From positions 3,293,501 through 3,357,500 of the forward strand of contig OZ022498.1 in the NCBI GenBank assembly GCA_963989385.1: a stretch of 64,000 nt of DNA. The letters are read 5' to 3'. Below the pieces are notes generated by a model that worked only from the letters and a program-made list of their open reading frames with translations, made no database searches and had not been told where the DNA came from. Made by a program: the position numbers and the translations under genes. Below, in pieces: positions 3,641 through 61,527 of this stretch. This DNA is from Ctena decussata (lineage: Eukaryota > Mollusca > Bivalvia > Lucinida > Lucinidae). Position 1 is the first letter of the stretch; every line of letters begins with the position of its first letter.

Positions 3641-4990
3641 GCTCAGGCAAGACCAGTTGTGGTGGCATGGACCTAAATGGCTTACCAAGCCAGTAAGTGA
3701 ATGGCCACTTTCAGATGATACAATTGACAGAAACACAGAGCTTGACTTTGAATCAGAATTTAAGATTAAAAAATGTCTACCGAAATTTATGTAATGGAAA
3801 TATCTGAAAAGATAGTTAAGCCTCAGACATATAGCTCTGGTACTACATCTCCTGTCGGAATCGATGGTGAAAGATACTCGTCTGCAACAAAGATGTTAAG
3901 AGTTACAGCACTTGCCCTTCGCTTCCTCAAAAAACTTAGAAAATCAGATAGTATTGTATGTCATTTAACTAGCTCTGACATAGATAAAGCAAAGACAATG
4001 TGGATAAGGTATGTTCAAGGAAAGCATTATCCAAAGGTGTACGAAGCAATATCAGGCAATGTTCAGATAATTTACAAAAGCAGTTGGGGTTATACATTGA
4101 TGATCACGGTCTGTTGCGATGTAAAGGCAGACTAGAACATGCAGATCTTAGTGAGAGAACACGCCATCCAGTTCTGTTACCAAAAAGATAGATATACGCA
4201 TTTGTTGATTAAGAAAACTCAAAGAGAAATGTTACATAGTAGTGTCTCTCAAACTCTCAGGTGCATTAGACACAAATACTGGATTCCCCATGGACGTGCA
4301 ACCGTCAGATCTGTCTTACGGAATTGTTCTGTGTGTCGCCGCCATGACAGCCGCCCATATAAAATGCCCACAATGTCTCCTTTACCTAAGGGTCGTGCCA
4401 CAGAAGCGTTTCCATTCTCGCGAACGGATATTAATTTTTTAGGGCCGTTGTTCATAAAAATAAATGAAAAGGCAAAAAAGGTTTGGATATGTTTGTTTGC
4501 CTGTTTTATCATACGTGCTGTTCATCTTGAACTCATGCAGGATATGTTCGCAGAAGAAATCCTTTTTGGATTTCGCAGATTTATCTCACAAAGAGGTACG
4601 CCAGAAGTTATAATAAGCGACAATGCTTTACAATTCAAATCCGCTAGTAAAACGTTGGATTTAATTTGGAAAACCATTACAAAAGATGACGAGATTCAGA
4701 GTTATGTGTCAAATATGGGTATAAAATGGTCGTTTATTGTGGAATTAGCACCATGAATGGGCGGCTTTTATGAAAGGCTAGTTGGTCTAGTTAAACGAGC
4801 TTTACGCAAAGCCATTAACAGAAATCTGCTCAGATGCATACAGTTGCAGACGCTACCAAAAGAAGTCGAAGAATCTGTTAATACAAGGCCGCTAGTGTAC
4901 ATGGGTGACGATCCAATATTATCCTAACTCCGGGGCATTTTTTAACTCTGATCCCAAACATGGTTCCAGAATTACGATAGGGATTTTAAT
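3640..4990 (+). pseudogene. BEL/Pao integrase (H2C2 zinc finger and rve core)
   Basis: Pieces lie in at least three frames. 3773-4135 and 4000-4191 carry the linker and a degraded DHGLLRCKGRLEHADL motif. 4139-4756 has LRCIRHKYWIPHGR, CSVCRRHDSRPY (the C-x-x-C of the zinc finger), RTDINFLGPLF with the first core aspartate, and VIISDNALQFKSA with the second. A stop at 4754-4756 falls before the third catalytic residue. GGFYERLVGLVKRALRK in another frame at about 4757-4810 carries the expected glutamate. The enzyme joins element cDNA to chromosomes. This copy is frameshifted. Confidence 0.86.
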
Positions 4991-8825: not shown

Positions 8826-9352
8826 TTAACATCAATTCTCTGTAAGCACCAGAATTGTTGAATGGGGGCGTTCCACGCACCGTCTCAGAATTGGCTGAAA
8901 TTTTCACACAATGGTCCTTACCACTCAGGTATAAGAAAAAAACCTTTCAAACTTTGACATCTACTTCCGTTGCCATGGTAACCGTCAGTGTCGATTTCAG
9001 CGAAATTTGGACTTAAATTCTTGTGATTTATATTAAAAATGGCATATTTTCACCCTTAAAAATCATAATAATCAACAGGTGGACAGGAGAAACAATTAAA
9101 CCTGTAAAATATTTGAGTTTTATTTAGCATGTTTCACAACAGACTTTAAGAATAAATTAATGTCACTAATAGTACCTTCACTGTCGACAATACATACTCT
9201 GGCGAATTTCATTAAAAGTGAAAAATGCAAAAAATGACAATATTTCAAGAGGAATAAAAAAAAATGCAGGCCTCTATGAATAATTTACATAGCTGCTCTT
9301 GAATTAACTAAGTATCATGATTGTAACTATGAAAAAAAACTGAGTGGGGTAA
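8826..9352 (+). repeat. Dispersed repeat, inverted copy at 24395-24882
   Basis: The left end, ttaacatcaattctctgtaa followed by gcaccagaat, is matched in reverse complement at 24853-24882. The right end, aaaaaactgagtggggtaa, is matched at 24395-24415. Middle sequence is more diverged (ccacgcacc shared). No coding potential was seen. Confidence 0.75.
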
Positions 9353-9513
9353 GAGCATCTTCGTGGAAAAATAAGCATACTAAATTTGCACCGTTATAGA
9401 AATTTAAAAAAATGGTTTTGAGCAGGTAAGCAAACATTTTGGCTCTATGTTAGCATTGTAGTAAGTTATGCATATATTGTTGCTGATAATTTATGACTAC
9501 AGGTCAGTTTTTA

Positions 9514-9622
9514 TAAAGGGTCACTGATGAGGCTTGAATAGCCGAAACCGCGGTATGGCCCAACTTCTTACTTATGAATGTTTTCTTTGCTCTTAAAGGA
9601 TCTAAACTTTTATCATTATTTA
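9514..9622 (+). repeat. 109 bp direct repeat carrying a hammerhead core, copy A
   Basis: Identical to 9889-9997 except for a single base (ttctttgctc here, ttctatgctc there). The repeats begin taaagggtcac and end atcattattta, with start-to-start spacing of 375 bp. Confidence 0.92.
9518..9561 (+). ncRNA. Type I hammerhead ribozyme, copy A
   Basis: All conserved hammerhead core elements are present in order. Stem I 5' strand GGGTCA (9518-9523), core CTGATGA (9524-9530), stem II GGCT/AGCC with loop TGAAT (9531-9543), core GAAA (9544-9547), stem III CCGCGG (9548-9553), UH cleavage dinucleotide TA (9554-9555), stem I 3' strand TGGCCC (9556-9561). Stem I pairs 6 of 6 with one G-U. Stem I is the open stem, so it is type I. 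Cleavage is predicted after 9555. In one molecule stem III would be only 2-3 pairs with a 2-base loop. ACCGCGGT is self-complementary, so two molecules could form an 8 bp shared stem III, as in known dimeric hammerheads. Such minimal hammerheads are known in Penelope-like elements and animal retrozymes. Confidence 0.82.
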
Positions 9623-9888
9623 CTATCACTGCAGCTGGATGTTGTGCCGTGTGGCGGCCGTAAAAAGTCTCCCCGCACTCATCTATAGTGCAGATTATAT
9701 TTTCCTTTTGGTCCTTTGAGATCATGGAATATATTCTGAGAAGTCAGAAATGATCATACGTTTAGATTCATTTTCTAAACAAATTTGAAATATTTTGGTA
9801 TTTTTCGACTTATATCAGTCTTTGAGACGACTGCCATGTTAAACCTGCAAATTTACTGTTTTTTTCCTCTGGCTCCTTGTGCCAGATT

Positions 9889-9997
9889 TAAAGGGTCACT
9901 GATGAGGCTTGAATAGCCGAAACCGCGGTATGGCCCAACTTCTTACTTATGAATGTTTTCTATGCTCTTAAAGGATCTAAACTTTTATCATTATTTA
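9889..9997 (+). repeat. 109 bp direct repeat carrying a hammerhead core, copy B
   Basis: Second copy of 9514-9622. The 266 bp between the copies has no similarity to Penelope RT or any frame I recognise. Confidence 0.92.
9893..9936 (+). ncRNA. Type I hammerhead ribozyme, copy B
   Basis: Identical 44-base core to copy A: GGGTCA 9893-9898, CTGATGA 9899-9905, stem II 9906-9918, GAAA 9919-9922, CCGCGG 9923-9928, TA 9929-9930, TGGCCC 9931-9936. Predicted cleavage is after 9930. Cutting at both sites would release a 375-nt RNA, within the size range reported for metazoan retrozyme monomers. Confidence 0.82.
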
Positions 9998-10890
9998 TTG
10001 AATTTGTATCAAACATTTCCTTGTCTCCAAAGAAAATGCATATTTTTCGCGTTCTAAGTGGAAAATATGTCGAAAACAGGGGGTAGGGGAAATAAACAAA
10101 AGCAAAATATCAACCGTAAAAGGAAGACTCTTTAATAAATGACTTTAACTGTGTAAATATCCATTCAGCATTATGTTAAACTGAACTTAATTAAAAATTT
10201 ATCAATGTGTGTGATGCTAAAGGGCAATAACTCTGCATTTTTGACGAAAAAGCAAAAAAAATTAGAAAACGCATGAAAATGAACTCAACCTTAGCTGTTT
10301 ACTGTGGGCATTAAACAATAACACAACAACACTTTTTAAGGTAAATACCAAACATATTTCATAGAATATGTTGAAAATATAAAAAAATATCATGAGTGCG
10401 TAGCATGAGTGAAACTCTAATATTTTCAACACATGAAAAAATTTTTGGTATTTATCGAAATAGAATTTTCTTTTCATTTTTTCTGTTTTGAAAAAAAAAA
10501 TAACTTTTTTTCATAGTCATTTCTTGTTAATTTTGCTTGTCTTACCACATTTAGTGGGTATAATATTGGGTGAAACTATAGTTTGCACCTAGAAAATAAC
10601 TAATAAGGCTATCTGAAAGAACGAATAAAAAGAAATTGGCAATTTAAGAAAGCCCTTTGCAGCTGCCTTCAGACTGATGTCGCATGCAAATTAGTTATAC
10701 TCCGGCTCAAAACCTGAAATCAAATGTGACGTCATTACTTGATTTGGCATGCTAACATCTGTAGCATAATGTCAGAATGCTACTTTTCAGACAGCTGCAG
10801 CATCCACATGATGTAAACCAGTATGATGTAAACCAGTATGAAATAAACCTTTCATGTATCATCAGGTGCCACTGAAGTATATTGGATATA
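9998..10890. other. AT-rich spacer, no gene
   Basis: Only short chance frames with A and T runs. A 14 bp direct repeat, gatgtaaaccagta, occurs twice at 10810-10840. Confidence 0.5.
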
Positions 10891-12428: not shown

Positions 12429-14200
12429 TATTCTTGGGCCCCTTTTGTTTCTGGTGTACATAAATGATATAGTCGAAGACATCAATTCCTTTATAAGATT
12501 ATTTGCAGATGACACCTCTCTTTATGTCATCGTTGAAAACCCTTTTGTCTCAGCCGAAATACTCAACTCCGATATTGATAAAGTACACTCGTGGGCAACA
12601 AAGTGGCTGGTCACATTTAATCCTCTTAAAACAGAAGAAATGATATTCTCAAGGAAACTGAATAAACCGCATCATCCTCCTATATACATGAATCAGAATC
12701 AAATTGCACAAGTAAGCTCTCATAAGCACTTAGGACTCACTCTTTCTGAAGATCTATCTTGGCACGAGCATTTTGAAACTATTAAGTCTAAAGCCTGGAA
12801 TCGTATAAATATCATGCGTAAGCTCAAGTTTCAGCTCGATAGAAAATCTCTCCAAGCAATTTATTTTTCATTTATCAGACCTCTTTTGGAGTATGCAGAT
12901 GTCGTTTGGGACAACTGCTTCCAGTACGAGGCAAATGAGTTGGAAAAAATCCAAAACGAAGCTGCTAGAATTGTTACTGGCGCCACAAAACTTGTCTCGA
13001 TCAATAATTTGTTGTAAGAGACTGGATGGGAATTACTGTCAACCAGAAGGAAAAAACATAAACTTTTTTTGCTTCAGATTTCCAGTGGGGTTGTTTGGCA
13101 GGACAGGGATCTCCACCTGTCAGACGGCCCGTTGTATCTGTTGAGTCCTCGTCTTTGCTTCTTCATGGTGTTGAAATTTGATTTATGTATCTACCGTGAT
13201 GATTCACTGACGAGTTAGAGGGTTATCATGCGAACCGAACAACCAACTAAATGTTTTGTACCACTTCAGAAACTGAGGGTGAGGTTGGGCCTGTAAAATT
13301 GATTTAAGCCCCCCAGTTATTCATTACTGACCGTTCCAAGGCGGTAGTTCTGTTGTGGTTCTTTGTTGCCTGTTTTTGGTGTCAGAGTTTCTGTGATGTT
13401 TTACCTTATGTATGTTATTATTATTTTTGGTTCGGTTTGGGTTGCTGAGTGGCCACCTTTTGGGAACAAGCTGCTCACTCGGTTGGCCATATGTTCTCTG
13501 TATCTTGATTATTTGTAATCTTAGTTGTTTCCAACTATGGTTTGAGGGCTGGATTTGGATTTTGATTGTTTCAGTTCCTGGTCTTTGCATACTTTTTACT
13601 TTTACACTTTTCTATAAAATGAATAATGGCTTATGTCCCAGTTATTTGAGTTCATTAGTCCCTCCATCTGTTGGAAGCAATACAACTTACAGTCTTCGAA
13701 ACGCTAGATACATTCCAACTATACATACTAAGTCGCAGCTTTACTATAATTCATTTCTACCGTCAGTTATTCGAGATTGGAACGATTTACCGTTGGAAAC
13801 TCGTGATGCAAGCAGTCTAAATTCCTTTAAGTACAAACTTAACACCGACCTAACACTCCCACCCGTATATTTCAATGACGGTAATCGGTACGGTCAAATT
13901 TATCATTCCAGACTTAGAACTGGTTGCAGCTCTCTCAACAGTCATCTCTACGCAAAGCACATAATTGATAATCCGCTCTGCATTTGCGGTGAGGTTGAGG
14001 ATGTAGATCATTACCTACTTCAGTGTAACAGGTATGCAGAACATAGAAGAGAAATGCTTAATATAATATCTACATTATGTCCACCAACTACACACACACT
14101 TTTGTGGGGTAACCCTGAGCTGACACGCCAAACAAATAAAGAAATTTTCCTAGCTGTTCAGAATTTTATACTGAAAACCAAGCGCTTCGAAATACAGTAG
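12429..14200 (+). pseudogene. LINE A reverse transcriptase C-terminal half
   Basis: 12429-13017 encodes the RT palm with IRLFADDTSLY (catalytic F-A-D-D), WLVTFNPLKTEEM, KHLGLTLSEDLSW and LEYADVVWDNC, then stops at TAA 13015-13017. After the insert, 13611-14200 continues with FYKMNNGLCPSYLSS, a TYSLRNARY motif, and a C-terminal cysteine/histidine box CICGEVEDVDHYLLQC typical of this LINE family. The protein is closely similar in order and motifs to LINE C. It would copy LINE RNA at a nicked target. It is inactive because the endonuclease and N-terminal RT are missing and the frame is broken. Confidence 0.9.
13071..13606 (-). mobile_element. Unclassified insertion in LINE A, contains shared 130 bp module
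   Basis: It separates the LINE codons for KHKL from FYKM, so it is a later insertion of about 536 bp next to a T run. No clear inverted repeats are seen. Its right part, 13475-13596, is the reverse complement of 3222-3350. The minus-strand frame 13324-13590 starts MQRPGTETIKIQIQPSN like the other copy. Family unknown. Confidence 0.7.
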
Positions 14201-22859: not shown

Positions 22860-24230
22860 AAAATAATACAAAAAAAAAAATAATAAATAAAAGAAAAATC
22901 ATTCACTTCACAGCCTACTGTGGAAGGTTGGGGGGGGAGAGTAAAAATTTAATTATTTCTCTTGAGGGTGGCGGTGGGGACGGGGACTTCACCGAATGAA
23001 TTAGTGCCTTTGGAAACTCCCAGTGCTGGAAATGAATTCATCCAGCAGCATCAGGAGTGTTTCTCTATGTTCTTTTAGTGAATCATTTTCCAGACCCAGG
23101 AAAATATCTGTTGTGACTTCTTGCTTACCTGTCTGATAAAACAACTGGGTCATCATTTTTTGTCGCTGCATCTCGAAATTCTCACAACTACACAAGAAAT
23201 GTTCTACAGTTTCAATTTCACCGCACTCACAATTTGGTGAATCAGACAAACCTACCTTATATTTGTATTCTTGAAGACCTACATAGCCTGTCCTCAACTG
23301 GGAGATAATCTGTTTTTCTGTTATGAATGGAACTGACATGTATTTAGGAAGTTTTGTGGAAATTTCTGGCTTATACCGGTGCAAAGTCCTACCTGTTTCA
23401 GCTGCCTCCCATCGCCTCTGCCAGTTAACACAACATGAAGCTCTTGCAAATGTCTTGAAATCTGCATTGGTTAGTATCTGACTATCTTCTGGAAAGTTCT
23501 CAGCTTCTCCTGCTGCCTCTTTGGCTAATGTGTCTGCAATGTTATTACCTTGTATTTCAGCATGACCTGGAGTCCATTTAAGTTCACACTTGATCTTCTG
23601 CTGACCCAACCTATTGATAAGCAATTGTATATCTTTGACAGTCTGCCTATGGGAAGTTGGTACCCACCCAAGGGACAAAATACCAACAGCAGACTGACTG
23701 TCAGAGAAAATTGTGATACCTTTCACTTCTGTTTTCCTTGATTCTTCTAATGTGAATTCTATAGCTACCAAGATAGCAATAAGTTCACCCAATAAAATGG
23801 ACCCTCTCCTTGCCACCGGCCTTTTCAGCTTGACAGGTTCTGCCTGGTCTGGAATGAAAATACAAGCCCCAGCCCCACAGGGCCCAGGGTTACCCTTACA
23901 AGACCCGTCTGTAAAGGCTACAATCTCTCCAAACTCACACTGGTCTAACAATCCTGAGATAGTGGCCCTTGCTTCCACTTCTTGCTCTACTGATCTGGAT
24001 TTGGAAGACCCAAGTCTATTCCAATATTCTGGCCTTGTTCTACTTGGGCACAGACCATTATATAAGAAAACTCTGGTTCAGTATTGTGAATTGTCATGTT
24101 GCAATTTGTCTGCATATCCTGCAGTTGCAAATTTGCCAACCCAAAGGGTGAAATATGTCTTTCTTGCTCATTTTCACTGTCTTTCCAGTTATTCCATAAA
24201 CTTTTAATAGGCTGATTCTGTCAAACTTGT
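22860..24230 (-). mobile_element. I-type (RNase H-bearing) LINE, 3' fragment
   Basis: Minus-strand retrotransposon end containing the C-terminal part of pol and a short 3' region with A/T runs (attatttattatttttttt near 22890-22868). The pol frame is broken upstream of 24077, and further degraded pol-like sequence extends to about 24230. RNase H domains of this kind are found in I, Nimb, R1 and related LINE clades. I cannot choose between them. Confidence 0.75.
23001..24077 (-). pseudogene. LINE-encoded RNase H domain with C-terminal zinc-like motif
   Basis: Open frame of about 359 codons after a TGA at 24078-24080, with no ATG until deep inside, so it is the tail of a longer polyprotein and not a stand-alone gene. 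The RNase H catalytic residues are all present: AFTDGSCKGNPG (Asp), LGELIAILVAI (Glu), FSDSQSAVGIL (Asp) and GNNIADTLAKEA (Asp), with KWTPGHAEIQGN before the last. A C-terminal block, CECGEIETVEHFLCSC, is the Cys-His box seen after RNase H in many LINEs. The domain would remove RNA from the cDNA hybrid. It is the longest undamaged retroelement frame in the window, suggesting a rather young insertion. Confidence 0.85.
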
Positions 24231-39036: not shown

Positions 39037-39501
39037 AGTTTAATTAGATCCCTACTTAAATTACACGTGCTGTTAGTCGAGCCTATTTCTTGAATTGCCA
39101 TTCACTATTGCTATTTATTGTACAGGAGATGATTGTATAAGTGGTTATCGCTTGTTATCAGATCCTGTTTTCCAGTATATTTATTGTATGTGCTATGTGT
39201 GTAAATGAGTTGAAATAAATATTGTTTAAACCAATTGGTTGATTTGATGCTTAACGTCCACGGTAAACAGCTAAGGTCATGTCGGGACGGTCAGTTAACC
39301 TAACCACACTATTCCTGGGCAGGCTTAGACTTCCTAAGCGGTTAACCAGTACTAAGTGCACATACTTTCGCCAGTACCTGACAACTGCCCTTCTTGAATC
39401 AGCGGAAGGAGAAACGAAAGTATGTGGCCAGACCGGGTTTCGAACCCAGGACCTCTGACTTATGAGGCAGGTGCCCTACCGATTGCGCTACGCGGCCCGG
39501 C
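38994..39501. mobile_element. Composite insertion: LINE 3' end (+) joined to tRNA-Met-derived SINE (-)
   Basis: 508 bp flanked by perfect 17 bp repeats gtggttctgggggagaa (38977-38993 and 39502-39518). The left part is a (TC)n tract and a LINE 3' UTR ending gaaataaatattgtttaaac ca, as in LINE A and C. The right part, 39236-39501, is on the minus strand a SINE: gggccgcgtagcgcaatcgg tagggc (A box), ctgcctcataagtcag (CAT anticodon position, Met-like), tgggttcgaaaccc (B box), body, and tail gtggacgttaagcatcaaat. A second SINE copy without the LINE part is at 50352-50616. Confidence 0.85.
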
Positions 39502-46949: not shown

Positions 46950-47760
46950 ATTGATAAACAGTAAGAACAAAAATGGACCCAACGCAGAGCCTTGAGGAAC
47001 ACCTGCAAGAATATAGTTCTACTGCGAATTAACACCGGTAAGAACTACTCTTAGTTTTCTTTTGTCCAGATATGAGGAAAAGCAAGATAGAAGATTCCCT
47101 GAAATACCAGCTGCTTCAAGTTTAAGTAAGAGACCCTTACGCCAAACACGGTCAAATGTCTTACTTATATCGCAGAAATCAGCCCTAACTTCTTTCCCAG
47201 CGTAAAGAGCCTGGCAGAATGTATCATATAGATAAGTGAGATGGTTGACTGTAGAATCAGCAGGTACAAAGCCTGATTGCAAAGGTGTTAAAATCTTATT
47301 GTTTAGGAAATAATTGTAGATGTGTATAAATATAACTCTTTCAAAAACTTTGTCAGGAGTACATAACAAGGAAACAGGTCGATAGTTTGAAGGCGCAGAA
47401 CGATCACCACTTTTATAAATCGGACAGACGTTTCCCATTTTCCGGCATTTGGGGAAGGTACCTGTCCGGACAGACTGATTACATAGTGAACATAAAGGAA
47501 AGGATAACTCAGTTGCTAGTTCTTGTAGTACACGATTGTTTATACCATCAGGTTCTGCTGCATTTCCTAAAGGCAAAGATTTTAAGACTGATTCTATTTC
47601 CGCCGATGTGATAGTTATTGTGGAGAGAATTGATTCTAAGTCACATGGTACTATTATTGGAAGTTCTGCATTTTTATCGTCTATAATTGTTTGGTCTCGA
47701 AAGAAGTCGTTCAAAATGTTAGCCTTGTCCAAGTCATCTGACTAAATAGTGCCATCTTTT
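46950..47760 (-). pseudogene. LINE B RT fingers and palm
   Basis: The frame 47732-47019 shows NAAEPDGINNRVL, PIYKSGDRSAPSNYRPVSL, LTPLQSGFVPADSTVNHL, ADFCDISKTFDRVW and LLKLEAAGISG. A stop then precedes AGVPQGSALGPFLFLLFIND at 47006-46950. These are standard motifs 1-5 of non-LTR RT. The D-x-x-K-x-F-D motif is intact (DISKTFD). Confidence 0.9.
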
Positions 47761-54979: not shown

Positions 54980-55423
54980 TCCTCACCCCTCACCCTTTTT
55001 TTCTTTATTCCTCACCCCTCACCCTTTTTTCTGTCTCTGTGAGGGCTAGCAGCCCTTGTTTTGTTTCTTCTGAGGCCGCCGCTTATCTGTAACCCAGCCG
55101 TTTCACTGTCACTACTAGACGAGCATAGATTTTGCATCTTATTCCTCACCCCTCACCCTTTTTTCTGCGATGTGTGCTTTCCTGCATGTGTTTTTATGTG
55201 CTTATACATGTGCTCCTGTCTGAGGCTCCACGGGGATTTAAATTTGCTTGTTCTGTATCGTATACTTATGCAACTGATACTGCTTTTAAATTGCATAGTT
55301 TGAAGCACCCCGCATCCCTTAAACTACTTAGGTTTTTGGTTTACTGTATTACATAAATGGACCCTATAGCAGTCTATAGGCCTACATTACAGTCGTCATA
55401 ACAAAATTAAGGGTCTTGATTAC

Positions 55424-56002
55424 TTGACGTCTTTCGAATTTTTGATAATTTTGTCCCTGTTGCTCTTAAAATCAGGAGATGTTGAACTGAATCCTGGTCC
55501 TGATACTGACAGCGTCTCTTCCTCTTCAAGCATTTCAACCCAGTTTGAAGATATAATAAGAAACAAATTTTCAGTCATCCACTACAACGTGCAAAGTCTA
55601 TTACCTAAAATTGGAATCATTGAGTCAGAGCTATTTAACTTCGACGTAATTTGCCTGACAGAAACTTGGCTTGACCAACGAACTAGTGATGATGTATTAG
55701 CTTTAAATGAATATAGCTTGTATCGTCGGGACCGAGCAAGGGGTGCTTACGGTGGCATTTGTGTTTTTGCTAAGAATGAACTATATTCACGGCGCAGGAA
55801 TGACCTTGAAATGGCAGACGTAGAATGTATTTGGCTAGAAATTCATAATCGCAAAAGAAAGGTTCTTATAGGTACTTTTTACAGACCTCCTAATTCAACT
55901 CCTGCTACCCTGACGTCCATTGAAAATTCCATAGGCCTAGCTTTCGACACAGACATAGAGAATATTCTCATTACTGGAGATTTCAATCTTGATATGCTTT
56001 AA
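55424..56002 (+). pseudogene. LINE C 2A-like motif and APE-type endonuclease
   Basis: The 192-residue frame starts with a hydrophobic leader (FEFLIILSLLLLKSGDV) and a canonical 2A motif, GDVELNPGP, at about residues 17-25. The endonuclease follows: FSVIHYNVQSLLPKIG (catalytic Asn region), VICLTETWLDQ (Glu), AYGGICVFAKN, IGTFYRPPNS and ILITGDFNLDM (Asp-Asn). The frame stops at TAA 56000-56002, just after NLDML, and coding continues in the same frame downstream (ISKRKVNDICQQFNLEQ), so one stop separates it from the rest. 2A sequences cause ribosomes to skip a peptide bond and release the leader. The codon at 55424 (ATG-like) is my assumed start; the true start may be upstream. Confidence 0.9.
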
Positions 56003-58752
56003 CAAATTTCTAAAAGAAAAGTAAATGACATTTGTCAACAGTTTAACCTTGAACAGCGCTCATAAATGAACCAACACATTATACAGAATCCTCGTCTTCA
56101 ATTTTTGACTTATCTCTTACAACAAAAAAGGAAACTATATTATTAAGCGGTGTTGGCGAGCCCTTCTTGGAACAAAACATACGATACCACTGCCCTATAT
56201 ACTGTGTATTCAATTCTAACAAAACTGTTACATCCTCATATGAAAGGCATATTTGGCTTTATGATAGGGGGGACTACGAAGCTCTTTCTAATGATATTAG
56301 GCAAACAAACTGGGATGATATTAAGAGTAATGATATTGATAAATATGCCCAAGACTTAACTAACCATATAACCAAATTAGCTAAGAAGCACATCCCAAAC
56401 AAACTAATTAAAGCCCGTCAATCAGATCCACCCTGACTTTGCAATAATATAAAGAAACTTATGAGAAAAAGAAAACGCCTCTATGATAAATATAAAAGAA
56501 CAAAATCTAGTACCGACTTTGAAAGCTATAAGCAAACGCGAAATAAAGTAACTGCAGCTATAAGGAAGGCGAAGGCACTTGAAACTGACAAATTAGCACA
56601 GAAACTTAGAAATGATAATATAAACTCGAAAGACTGGTGGAAAACTCTAAAAAAATTTCATTAAACCAGGACAAACATCAGCCATTCCGCCGTTAAACAA
56701 AGACGATGTCATTTACTCTGACCCTAAGGATAAAGCTAATACATTTAATACTTTTTTTACGGAACAAACAATACTAGATGAAACTAACGCCTCTCTACCT
56801 TCAGTGATTCCTATCCCGACCTCTACTCTAAGTTCAGTGTCAACTACACCCTTTGAAGTTAAAATCAATATTTAAATCATTAAAAACTGGTAAAGCCACA
56901 GGCCCTGACTGTATAAATAATAGACTTCTGAAAGAAGCTGCCTCCGCTCTATCCTTTCCTGTTTGCGACATTTTTAACTTCTCCCTGGCACAAGGTAAAG
57001 TCCCAACTTTATGGAAACAGGCTAATGTAACACCTATTCATAAAAAGAATGACCTGTCGAACTGTTCTAATTACAGACCAATTTCACTTTTAAGTACCAT
57101 AGGTAAATCACTAGAAAAGATAATACATAAACATGTTTTCAATTTTCTTCAAGCTAACTCTTTGTTAACTAACTTACAGTCTGGATTTGTACCAGCAGAC
57201 TCAACAGTAAACCAACTTGTCGACATTTACAACACTTTCTGCAAGGCCCTAGATGAGGGAAAAGAAGTTCGTGCCATATTCTGTGACGTCAGTAAGGCTT
57301 TTGATAGGGTATGGCACAAAGGTCTTTTGTTCAAACTCAAATCAACTGGTGTCACTGATTCTCTCATAGACTGGTTTGAAGATTACCTGAGTAATAGAAA
57401 GCAAAGAGTTGTCCTACCTGGTGCAACTTCCAGATGGACAAACATCAAAGCTGGGGTTCCCCAGGGCTCAATACTTGGCCCACTCTTATTTTTAGTGTAC
57501 ATTAACGATATTGTTGATGACATCGATTCAAGTATAAGGCTTTTTGCGGACGACACTAGTCTCTATATAATAGTAGATAACCCTATTGAAGCAGCAATTC
57601 AACTTAATGCAGACCTTGAAAAAGTGCACCAGTGGGCCTCAAAGTGGTTAGTTACATTTAACCCAGCTAAGACAGAATCACTTTTATTTACTCGGAAGCA
57701 AAATAGACCATATCATCCACCTGTAAGTATGAACCATAATGTAATAACCGAAGTGACTGACCATAAACATCTAGGTCTAACCTTTACCAGTGATTGCACA
57801 TGGCATGAACACTTAGAATCCGTTAAGCAAAAAGCATGGTTTCGAATTAATATTATCCGAAAATTAAAATTTACTCTTGATAGACTGTCCTTACAAACAA
57901 TATACTTTTCTTTCGTTAGACCTCTGCCTCATAGTTGAGGGCATACCAGTATACCGGCAAAAGCAAAAAGCAAAAGGAGTACGCCGACGTTGTCTGGGAC
58001 AACTGTACACAGTATGAGGTGTCCGAACTTGAAAAAATACAAAACGAAGCAGCTCGGATTGTGACTGGCGCCACAAAACTGGTATCAATTAATTCACTTA
58101 TTACAGAAACTGGTTGGGAAACTGTAGCTAAGCGTAGGAAAAAACACAAACTCCAGTTATTTTACAAAATGCAAAATAATTTGTCACCTGATTACCTGTC
58201 CTCATTAGTTCCGCCAACTGTTGGAAGCACTTCAGCATACCACTTGCGAAATGCTTCAGATGTACATCTGATACATGCAAATACACAATTATATTTTAAC
58301 TCGTTCCTTCCATCAGTTACGCGAGAATGGAATGAACTCCCGCAAGACGTGCGCGATTCGAACAGTTTGGGCACATTCAGATGCAAATTAAATGTCGATA
58401 TTACTAAACCTCCTGCATATTACAACTCTGGCTCCCGTCTAGGTCAGATTTATCATGCTAGATTGAGAACCCATTGCAGCTCATTAAATGAGCACTTGTT
58501 CTCAAAAAATCTAGTGGACAGCCCACTGTGTGTGTTTGTGGTGAGGTAGAAAACACACACCATTATTTGTTTGATTGTACTCGGTATGGTGATCAAAGGC
58601 GTGATCTCCTAAATGCCGTCTCTCATTACTGCGAACCAACTTTTAATACACTATTATTTGGTAACCCAGCACTTGCGTTAACCCTGAATCAGCATATCTT
58701 CACTGCCGTCCAGGACTACTTGATAAACACAAAACGATTTCAAGTTAATTAA
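56003..58752 (+). pseudogene. LINE C linker, reverse transcriptase and C-terminal Cys-His box
   Basis: Pieces 56167-56436, 56461-56664, 56853-57938, 57935-58549 and 58528-58752 run in one order. The linker shows IRYHCPIY, MRKRKRLYDKYKR and DWWKTLKKF. RT motifs: GKATGPDCINNRLLKE, NYRPISLLSTIGKSLE, LQSGFVPADSTVNQL, FCDVSKAFDRVWH, GVPQGSILGPLLFLVYIND, IRLFADDTSLYI and WLVTFNPAKTE. The C-terminus shows YHLRNASDVHLIHANTQ and CVCGEVENTHHYLFDC. The defects are a few stops, small frameshifts (near 56655, 58545), and a 50 bp insertion at about 57926-57975 between FSFVRPL and EYADVVWDN. This enzyme makes cDNA on the nicked target. The catalytic F-A-D-D is intact. Confidence 0.9.
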
Positions 58753-61044: not shown

Positions 61045-61527
61045 CTTACAGAAATAGTGCTTTAATCTAAGAATCGCGAAGCACTAAACAAGGTTCTCGG
61101 CGTGATAAACCTTTTTCTATAGAAAAACAATGCTGTAAGCTAAGAATCGCGAAGCACTAAACAAGGTTCTTAGCGTGATAAACCTTTTTCTATAGAAAAA
61201 CAATGCTTTAAGCTAAGAATCGCGAAGCACTAAACAAGGTTCTTAGCTTGATAAGCCTTTTTCTATAGAAAAACAATGCTTTAAGCTAAGAATCGCGAAG
61301 CACTAAACAAAGTTCTTAGCGTGATAAACCTTTTTCTATAGAAAAACAATGCTTTAAGCTAAGAATCGCGAAACACTAAACAAGGTTCTTAGCGTGATAA
61401 GCCTTTTACTATAGAAAAACAATTCTTTAAGCTAAGAAGCGTGAAGCACGAAACACGGTTCTTAGCGTGATAAGCCTTTTCGATAGAAAAACAATGCTTT
61501 AAAATAAGAATCGTGAAGCACGAAACG
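61045..61527 (+). repeat. 73 bp satellite, about 6.5 units
   Basis: Gaatcgcgaagcactaaaca occurs at 61071, 61144, 61217, 61290 and 61363, with variant forms at 61436 and 61508. Each unit has gctaagaa...ttcttagc, an inverted pair of 8 bases, and cctttttctatagaaaaaca. Period is exactly 73 for six steps. Confidence 0.95.

Follow-up and report, generated by a model that had tools for sequence, protein, structure and literature searches.

The element at positions 9514-9997 of the window, i.e. of the whole 64,000-nt stretch of Ctena decussata DNA analysed in this work, is a metazoan non-LTR retrozyme, non-coding and of a known kind. New here, within a limited literature search, is the anatomy of its insertions: in 60 copies compared, the 3' ends lie within 12 bases of one point and the 5' starts are found all over the element. 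No prior announcement of such fixed 3' and random 5' ends for retrozymes was found in the titles and abstract openings searched. From these patterns in the genomic sequence, the copies are probably explained by rolling-circle reverse transcription of a circular RNA from a fixed start. The enzyme that mobilises retrozymes and the circle as their true template are left as hypothesis in the available parts of PMC7229834, PMC7761336 and the 2024 review PMC11722881. A family of more than 1000 hammerhead copies, near-identical where sampled, makes the template question countable in terms of a fixed start, a random stop and any number of laps, and the end pattern predicts where the primer junction on the circle should lie.

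The hammerhead pair and its 375-nt unit

Two direct repeats of 109 bp each, 375 bp apart and with a single difference (9587 T vs 9962 A), contain one identical 44-nt type I hammerhead each. The features of the element are listed below, with phase 1 assigned to the base directly following the predicted cut (9556).

9514..9997, + strand: 484-nt retrozyme insertion (1.29 units), from phase 334 at its 5' end to phase 67 at its 3' end
9556..9930, + strand: full 375-nt lap, the predicted RNA monomer or circle between the predicted cleavage sites
9518..9561, + strand: hammerhead 1 (type I), predicted cleavage 9555/9556
9893..9936, + strand: hammerhead 2, identical to hammerhead 1, predicted cleavage 9930/9931
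9547..9554, + strand: stem III of hammerhead 1, the 8-nt palindrome ACCGCGGT, which can pair with its counterpart in the second copy (double hammerhead)
9922..9929, + strand: stem III of hammerhead 2, the same 8-nt palindrome
9514..9622, + strand: first copy of the direct repeat, by which the insertion exceeds one unit
9889..9997, + strand: direct repeat copy 2; its A at 9962 is absent from the other arrays analysed
9995..9997, + strand: fixed 3' terminus (phases 65-67), putative start of reverse transcription, in a region of the circle predicted to be single-stranded

Each hammerhead consists of a 6-bp stem I (GGGTCA/TGGCCC), the core CTGATGA, a 4-bp stem II (GGCT-TGAAT-AGCC), then GAA and the stem III ACCGCGGT, with A17 at 9555 and 9930, respectively. 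CUGANGA, GAA, the A-U pair closing stem III, the UH site and stems I and II are all present. A structural descriptor (core, stem II of at least 3 bp, stem III of at least 2 bp, stem I of at least 4 bp) found only these two sites on both strands of the window and 0 in 100 dinucleotide shuffles; a looser pattern has 2 matches in the window vs 0.01 expected. Coordinates and descriptor scan thus bear out the original prediction of two identical 44-base hammerheads in 109-bp direct repeats with one difference and 375 spacing, and the cleavage positions agree with those given there. The same prediction had named in advance, among the grounds for its refutation, the lack of a hammerhead hit above threshold, and Rfam found no hammerhead either in the whole window at the gathering score or in 9300-10200 at E<=10, which formally counts against it. 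We read this miss as a limit of the covariance models, uninformative for such a stem III, because this stem is no longer than 2-3 bp and its loop is tiny.

On its own, stem III, whose eight letters form the palindrome ACCGCGGU, is limited to A-U and C-G pairs with a tetraloop, or three pairs with a two-base loop. The minimum free energy structure of a single copy is a non-hammerhead fold (-14.4 kcal/mol, vs -10.7 kcal/mol when folded as the hammerhead). Co-folding of two copies is predicted to give a double hammerhead at -39.3 kcal/mol, each core opposite the cleavage site of its partner. The 101-nt context of the hammerhead folds no better than shuffles (z 0.56). The 375-nt circle has a predicted circular minimum free energy of -88.9 (z -2.4 vs 60 shuffles), its paired fraction of 0.57 not exceeding the 0.59 of the shuffles; circular RNAs of metazoan non-LTR retrozymes are described as stable and highly self-paired (PMC7229834). 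Weak-stem-III hammerheads of newts and Penelope-like elements (PLEs) are described as working in a paired double form in the available parts of PMC7229834 and PMC7761336, and the newt and axolotl retrozyme hammerhead cleaves better with a partner copy (PMC7229834). A weak stem III is shared with these satellite-type retrozymes, which measure 330-350 nt and possess a 1-bp stem with a palindromic tetraloop or a 2-bp stem with a tetraloop, as opposed to the 8-nt palindrome found here (PMC7229834).

No protein-coding region was found in the element: the longest ATG frame overlapping 9514-9997 has 73 aa, lies on the minus strand and ends 10 nt outside, and a Penelope-like ORF with reverse transcriptase (RT) and GIY-YIG endonuclease is absent from the unit. 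Metazoan non-LTR retrozymes (Cervera & de la Pena 2020) carry a type I hammerhead in repeats of ~150-450 bp, arranged as dimers to multimers (PMC7229834). The present element resembles them in its type I hammerhead, non-coding units, low GC content (0.376 in the 375-nt unit, i.e. below 50%) and many copies, which number thousands there (PMC7229834). Retrozyme repeats of the Mediterranean mussel are ~350-390 bp long, compared with 375 here; mussel hammerheads are devoid of most archetypal loop contacts, and amphibian ones act as dimers (PMC7229834). An exact 32-nt core has 0 matches in IMG/VR as searched, from which records near the genome of the window may be left out.

Genomic copies, their ends and their target sites

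The search of the genome (1.66 Gb, 245 contigs) for further copies, suggested together with the original prediction, recovered 1135 exact 44-mers (581 on one strand, 554 on the other; reversed control 0) as well as multi-unit arrays of the 375-nt unit. With 9514-9997 as query, 123 matches of 97-100% identity were obtained from the best 40 of 1306 first-look candidates scored, in short arrays dispersed over 16 contigs, and we infer that the family is young. The retrozyme-like identity proposed earlier holds: the 375-nt units with their type I hammerhead are non-coding, near-identical and dispersed, and occur both in arrays reaching 10.75 units and in shorter truncated copies.

Two samples were aligned to the head-to-tail repeated unit, an arrangement in which continuing arrays would show as continuing. 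The best-hit sample comprises 38 loci from the best-scoring 40 of 1306 candidates and is biased towards near-identity. The map-order sample comprises 20 loci from the first 100 of the 1135 exact 44-mers, on contig C1 up to 52.6 Mb and excluding loci already in the best-hit sample; by its selection it contains only copies with at least one whole hammerhead. Together they yield 60 arrays, 40 from the 38 fetched loci and the window and 20 in map order. The 3' end lies at phase 63-75 after the predicted cut in 60/60 arrays, with a mode of 65 (phase 63-72 in the first 40 arrays and phase 65-75 in 20/20 map-order arrays), and possesses neither a poly-A nor a microsatellite tail. Two further alignment rows stop at phase 288, where a nested insert interrupts the array, and do not represent array ends. 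Among 375 segments of 12 nt ordered by predicted unpairedness, the one at phase 60 takes rank 13, i.e. the putative RT start is predicted to be single-stranded.

Removal of the second L020 copy and of L030 (flanks in common with L045) left 58 independent arrays for the count of 5' ends. These ends are uniform around the unit (11, 12, 11, 11 and 13 in five bins, KS p 0.96), with 1 observed at up to 5 nt from the cleavage site vs 1.5 expected; the window element itself starts 4 nt 5' of its first hammerhead. Array lengths range from 104 to 4032 nt, corresponding to 0.28-10.75 units, and are non-integer. Map-order lengths (n=23, i.e. the 20 new arrays and three counted before, window included) fit a constant stopping chance after the first 103 nt, with a mean further length of ~366 nt (KS p 0.29), and 8/23 reach at least 484 nt, enough for two whole hammerheads. 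The cleavage junction is read through in 60/60 arrays, in some of them about ten times.

Compared unit by unit, eight changes occur in every unit covering them, in five arrays: L047 (phases 326 and 330), L051 (51), L057 (51) and L063 (15 and 42) with two units each, and L060 (289 and 304, in 3/3 units). All eight stem from the map-order sample; the best-hit sample, picked for likeness to the window, has 0. The change at phase 51 of L053 was scored in 1/2 units, its other occurrence lying within six bases trimmed at the 5' end, where it is visible in the junction sequence. A further 90 changes are found in one unit of several, as expected of mutation after insertion, and 15 lie where only one unit gives coverage. 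Seven changes are common to some but not all units. Four of these seven are situated at the T-run at phase 303-304; the three elsewhere are L011 240T>G, L037 318C>T and L041 275A>T. In L024 and L019, the sole changes shared between units lie in a T-run.

A clear target-site duplication is absent at most insertions. For the window copy none is convincing, the best 8-mer (ATGCATAT) being located 38 nt outside on both sides. L044 has a duplication of 9 to 14 bp, with 5 of the 14 matching bases potentially belonging to the element. The longest flank match averages 5.36 vs 4.97 +/- 0.15 in shuffled pairings (2/200 shuffles as high), and a minority of insertions may possess a duplication; in metazoan non-LTR retrozymes, target-site duplications, when present, exceed 4 bp (PMC7229834). 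Four empty sites were usable in related repeats, those of L017, L039, L043, L046, L060 and L062 being left out for relatives of only 65-73% identity. The four are near-blunt and without duplication: L022 loses 5 nt, L033 4 nt (less with microhomology), and L052 and L063 ~1 nt each. L057 possibly gains ~3 nt compared with a more distant relative of 81% identity. Target sites are not AT-rich and display no AT preference, with (TA)n within 60 nt at 1/57 sites.

The available parts of PMC7229834 and PMC7761336 describe plant LTR retrozymes as retroelements of hammerhead-bounded circular RNA, a circle predicted here too, but with type III hammerheads, 600-1000 nt, LTRs of ~350 bp, 4-bp target duplications and a primer binding site. 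A plant-type LTR retrozyme was rejected on the basis of the type I topology and because none of the four empty sites that were readable has a duplication.

In two copies of one tandem-like repeat, the insertions of L022 and L033 share their 3' base but differ in 5' phase, and they apparently arose separately. A 538-bp interspersed repeat (window 13063-13600) recurs in L012, L027, L030, L044, L049, L050 and L057. In L012 and L030, an insert containing this repeat is located inside the retrozyme array at the same phase (288/289) and with the same boundary, in lengths of 331 and 856 bp, which suggests two insertions at one preferred site.

Penelope-like elements of the genome

GIY-YIG hits number 150 (150 scored of 926 candidates), many of them in open frames of 766-774 aa. 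One PLE tandem array consists of five units exactly 3681 bp apart (C2:2606716-2621697). It belongs to a head-to-head arrangement at C2:2587885-2621697, four minus units followed by five plus units, 3681 bp apart on each strand.

The stretch past the GIY-YIG domain was sampled at six loci (L067-L072), which represent four families by sequence. Hammerhead-like motifs with a palindromic stem III are present in two of the four families, in L067 (AUGCAU) and L072 (AGCGCU); the hammerhead scan of L068-L071 found none. The L067 motif reads TTCCC-CTGATGA-TCTTATACAGT-GAA-ATGCAT-A/GGGAA with a weak stem II. Its loose hammerhead pattern occurs also in 12/200 shuffles, and Rfam found no hammerhead on L067; judged by its sequence, the motif is likely rather than sure to be genuine. 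The PLE insertion extends to L067:188, i.e. 70 nt beyond the predicted cut, or slightly less far given TA microhomology. Only two 3' junctions of this family were placed, L067 itself and C1:42415503-42415690; 12 nt beyond the latter PLE end follows the repeat that flanks L072. A common 3' end of all PLE matches to the L067 query was rejected, as the query itself leaves the PLE at 188 and alignments must stop there.

The L072 motif has an 8-bp stem I and the stem III AGCGCT, and the family ends ~98 nt beyond the predicted cut, immediately ahead of (TA)n. Among 22 non-self rows starting at query position 1, 21 reach 320 or beyond, well into (TA)n, and the other stops at 251. The loci L068, L069, L070 and L072 directly adjoin (TA)n; the tract at L072 belongs to another repeat, itself common in the genome.

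The retrozyme resembles PLEs with minimal hammerheads, as described in the available parts of PMC11167929 and PMC7761336, in its weak, often palindromic stem III, tandem copies and a fixed 3' end shortly past the hammerhead. It differs in the lack of an ORF, in its sites, the PLEs of this genome being located in (TA)n, and in its tail, which shares no sequence with the two compared: 440/500 and 274/500 shuffles score as high against the tails of L067 and L072, respectively. In a lizard PLE, reverse transcription starts internally at +111 to +118, with the hammerhead cut at +26 (PMC11167929). Subtraction of these positions places the start 85-92 nt past the cut, and the 65 nt of the retrozyme is a distance of this kind.

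Template and enzyme

Paired hammerheads, copy number, the fixed 3' end, uniform 5' ends, read-through of the junction and the mostly missing clear duplication are seen in the sequence. In the cycle proposed to connect them, the paired hammerheads would cut the transcript into a 375-nt RNA, cleavage probably being aided as the palindromic stem III strands of both copies pair with each other. The double self-cleavage, the 5'-OH and 2',3'-cyclic phosphate ends and the 375-nt circle of the original prediction remain predictions from the sequence. A host RNA ligase would close the RNA into a circle, which is likely to exist. Primed at the target site, an RT would begin at a single internal position, ~65 nt beyond the hammerhead cut, and lap the circle a variable number of times, with a PLE as the first candidate for the enzyme. 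Only copies passing ~1.3 laps, in which two whole hammerheads are laid down, could feed the cycle, under which the window element is almost the shortest copy able to do so. Priming on the circle is proposed rather than demonstrated in the available parts of PMC7229834; the genomic ends indicate one fixed internal start and random stops.

Because all 60 arrays continue through the cut, the insertion pattern, as read from the genomic copies, supports a template in which the cleavage junction was either closed or never cut. A linear monomer cut at both sites, with its 5' end at phase 1 and its 3' end at phase 375, is ruled out, since copying from phase 65 would run off after 65 nt and the junction that every array crosses would be lacking. 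A linear multimer, transcribed from a genomic array, left uncut and copied from the same fixed internal start, with long arrays arising by unequal crossing-over, would likewise give 3' ends fixed at this point and 5' ends that are truncated, and is in line with the lizard PLE, whose insertion in vitro is independent of hammerhead cleavage (PMC11167929), and with the seven changes common to some units only. We consider it quite unlikely: daughters would be no longer than their parents, so the arrays of 9.5 and 10.75 units need later growth, in L024 and L019 only T-run changes recur between units, and L047, L051, L057, L060 and L063 possess all-unit changes. The circle is favoured over the multimer because these eight changes occur in every covering unit, as for copies of one molecule; it also explains arrays of any length without preference for whole numbers. 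Ordinary satellite DNA with a chance hammerhead, multiplied in tandem by unequal crossing-over, accounts for tandem, near-identical units, but satellites have no such end as the fixed 3' terminus in 60/60 arrays, and the uniform 5' ends and short arrays on 16 contigs add to making this origin extremely improbable.

Assuming rolling-circle copying of the RNA, the enzyme is the less certain part. What makes a PLE enzyme plausible is that hammerhead-like motifs occur in two of the four sampled families, with ends ~70 or 98 nt beyond the predicted cut. Given that the tails are unlike, the target taste differs and few PLE junctions are readable, we put this source, from sequence comparison, at slightly less than an even chance. 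The same rolling-circle copying by an enzyme from a LINE is possible but doubtful. The window contains frames with Exo_endo_phos (55370-55999) and RVT_1 (56832-57935) matches, a pair that we read as LINE-like; retrozyme sites are without the (TA)n seen at PLEs, and the L044 duplication of 9 to 14 bp and the possible gain of ~3 nt in L057 likewise accord with a LINE. Against it stand the 3' end without poly-A or microsatellite tail, most sites being free of duplication despite some excess of flank matches (5.36 vs 4.97 +/- 0.15), the near-blunt empty sites of L022, L033, L052 and L063 with ~1-5 nt lost, and the internal start after the hammerhead, a reported PLE trait (PMC11167929).

A broader reading would have hammerhead PLEs and retrozymes share their replication: RNA circles would be lapped by PLE RT from a fixed site past the hammerhead, tandem PLE arrays would be rolling-circle products too, and the hammerhead would exist to make endless templates. 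We hold this to be rather unlikely; it is graded down, as is the PLE link, because two of the four sampled families showed no hammerhead in the scan and the chance control of L067 is weak.

Further retroelement remains occur in the window at 1106-1651 (weak RT match, below cut-off), 4136-4753 (integrase zinc-binding), 23004-24077 (RNase H), 47022-47741 (RT), 55370-55999 (endonuclease/exonuclease) and 56832-57935 (RT). The RNase H frame (23001-24077) has 214 relatives at E<=1e-20, the closest among at least 120 listed having 61-63% identity; among the matches listed, most named ones are from bivalves (Mytilus, Ruditapes, Mercenaria) and a few from bins of Candidatus Thiodiazotropha, a clam symbiont. 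A tRNA match of 34.5 bits at 39425-39497 (- strand) is perhaps the head of a tRNA-derived SINE, and a tandem array at 61058-61526 comprises 6.4 copies of a 73-bp unit with 93% matches.
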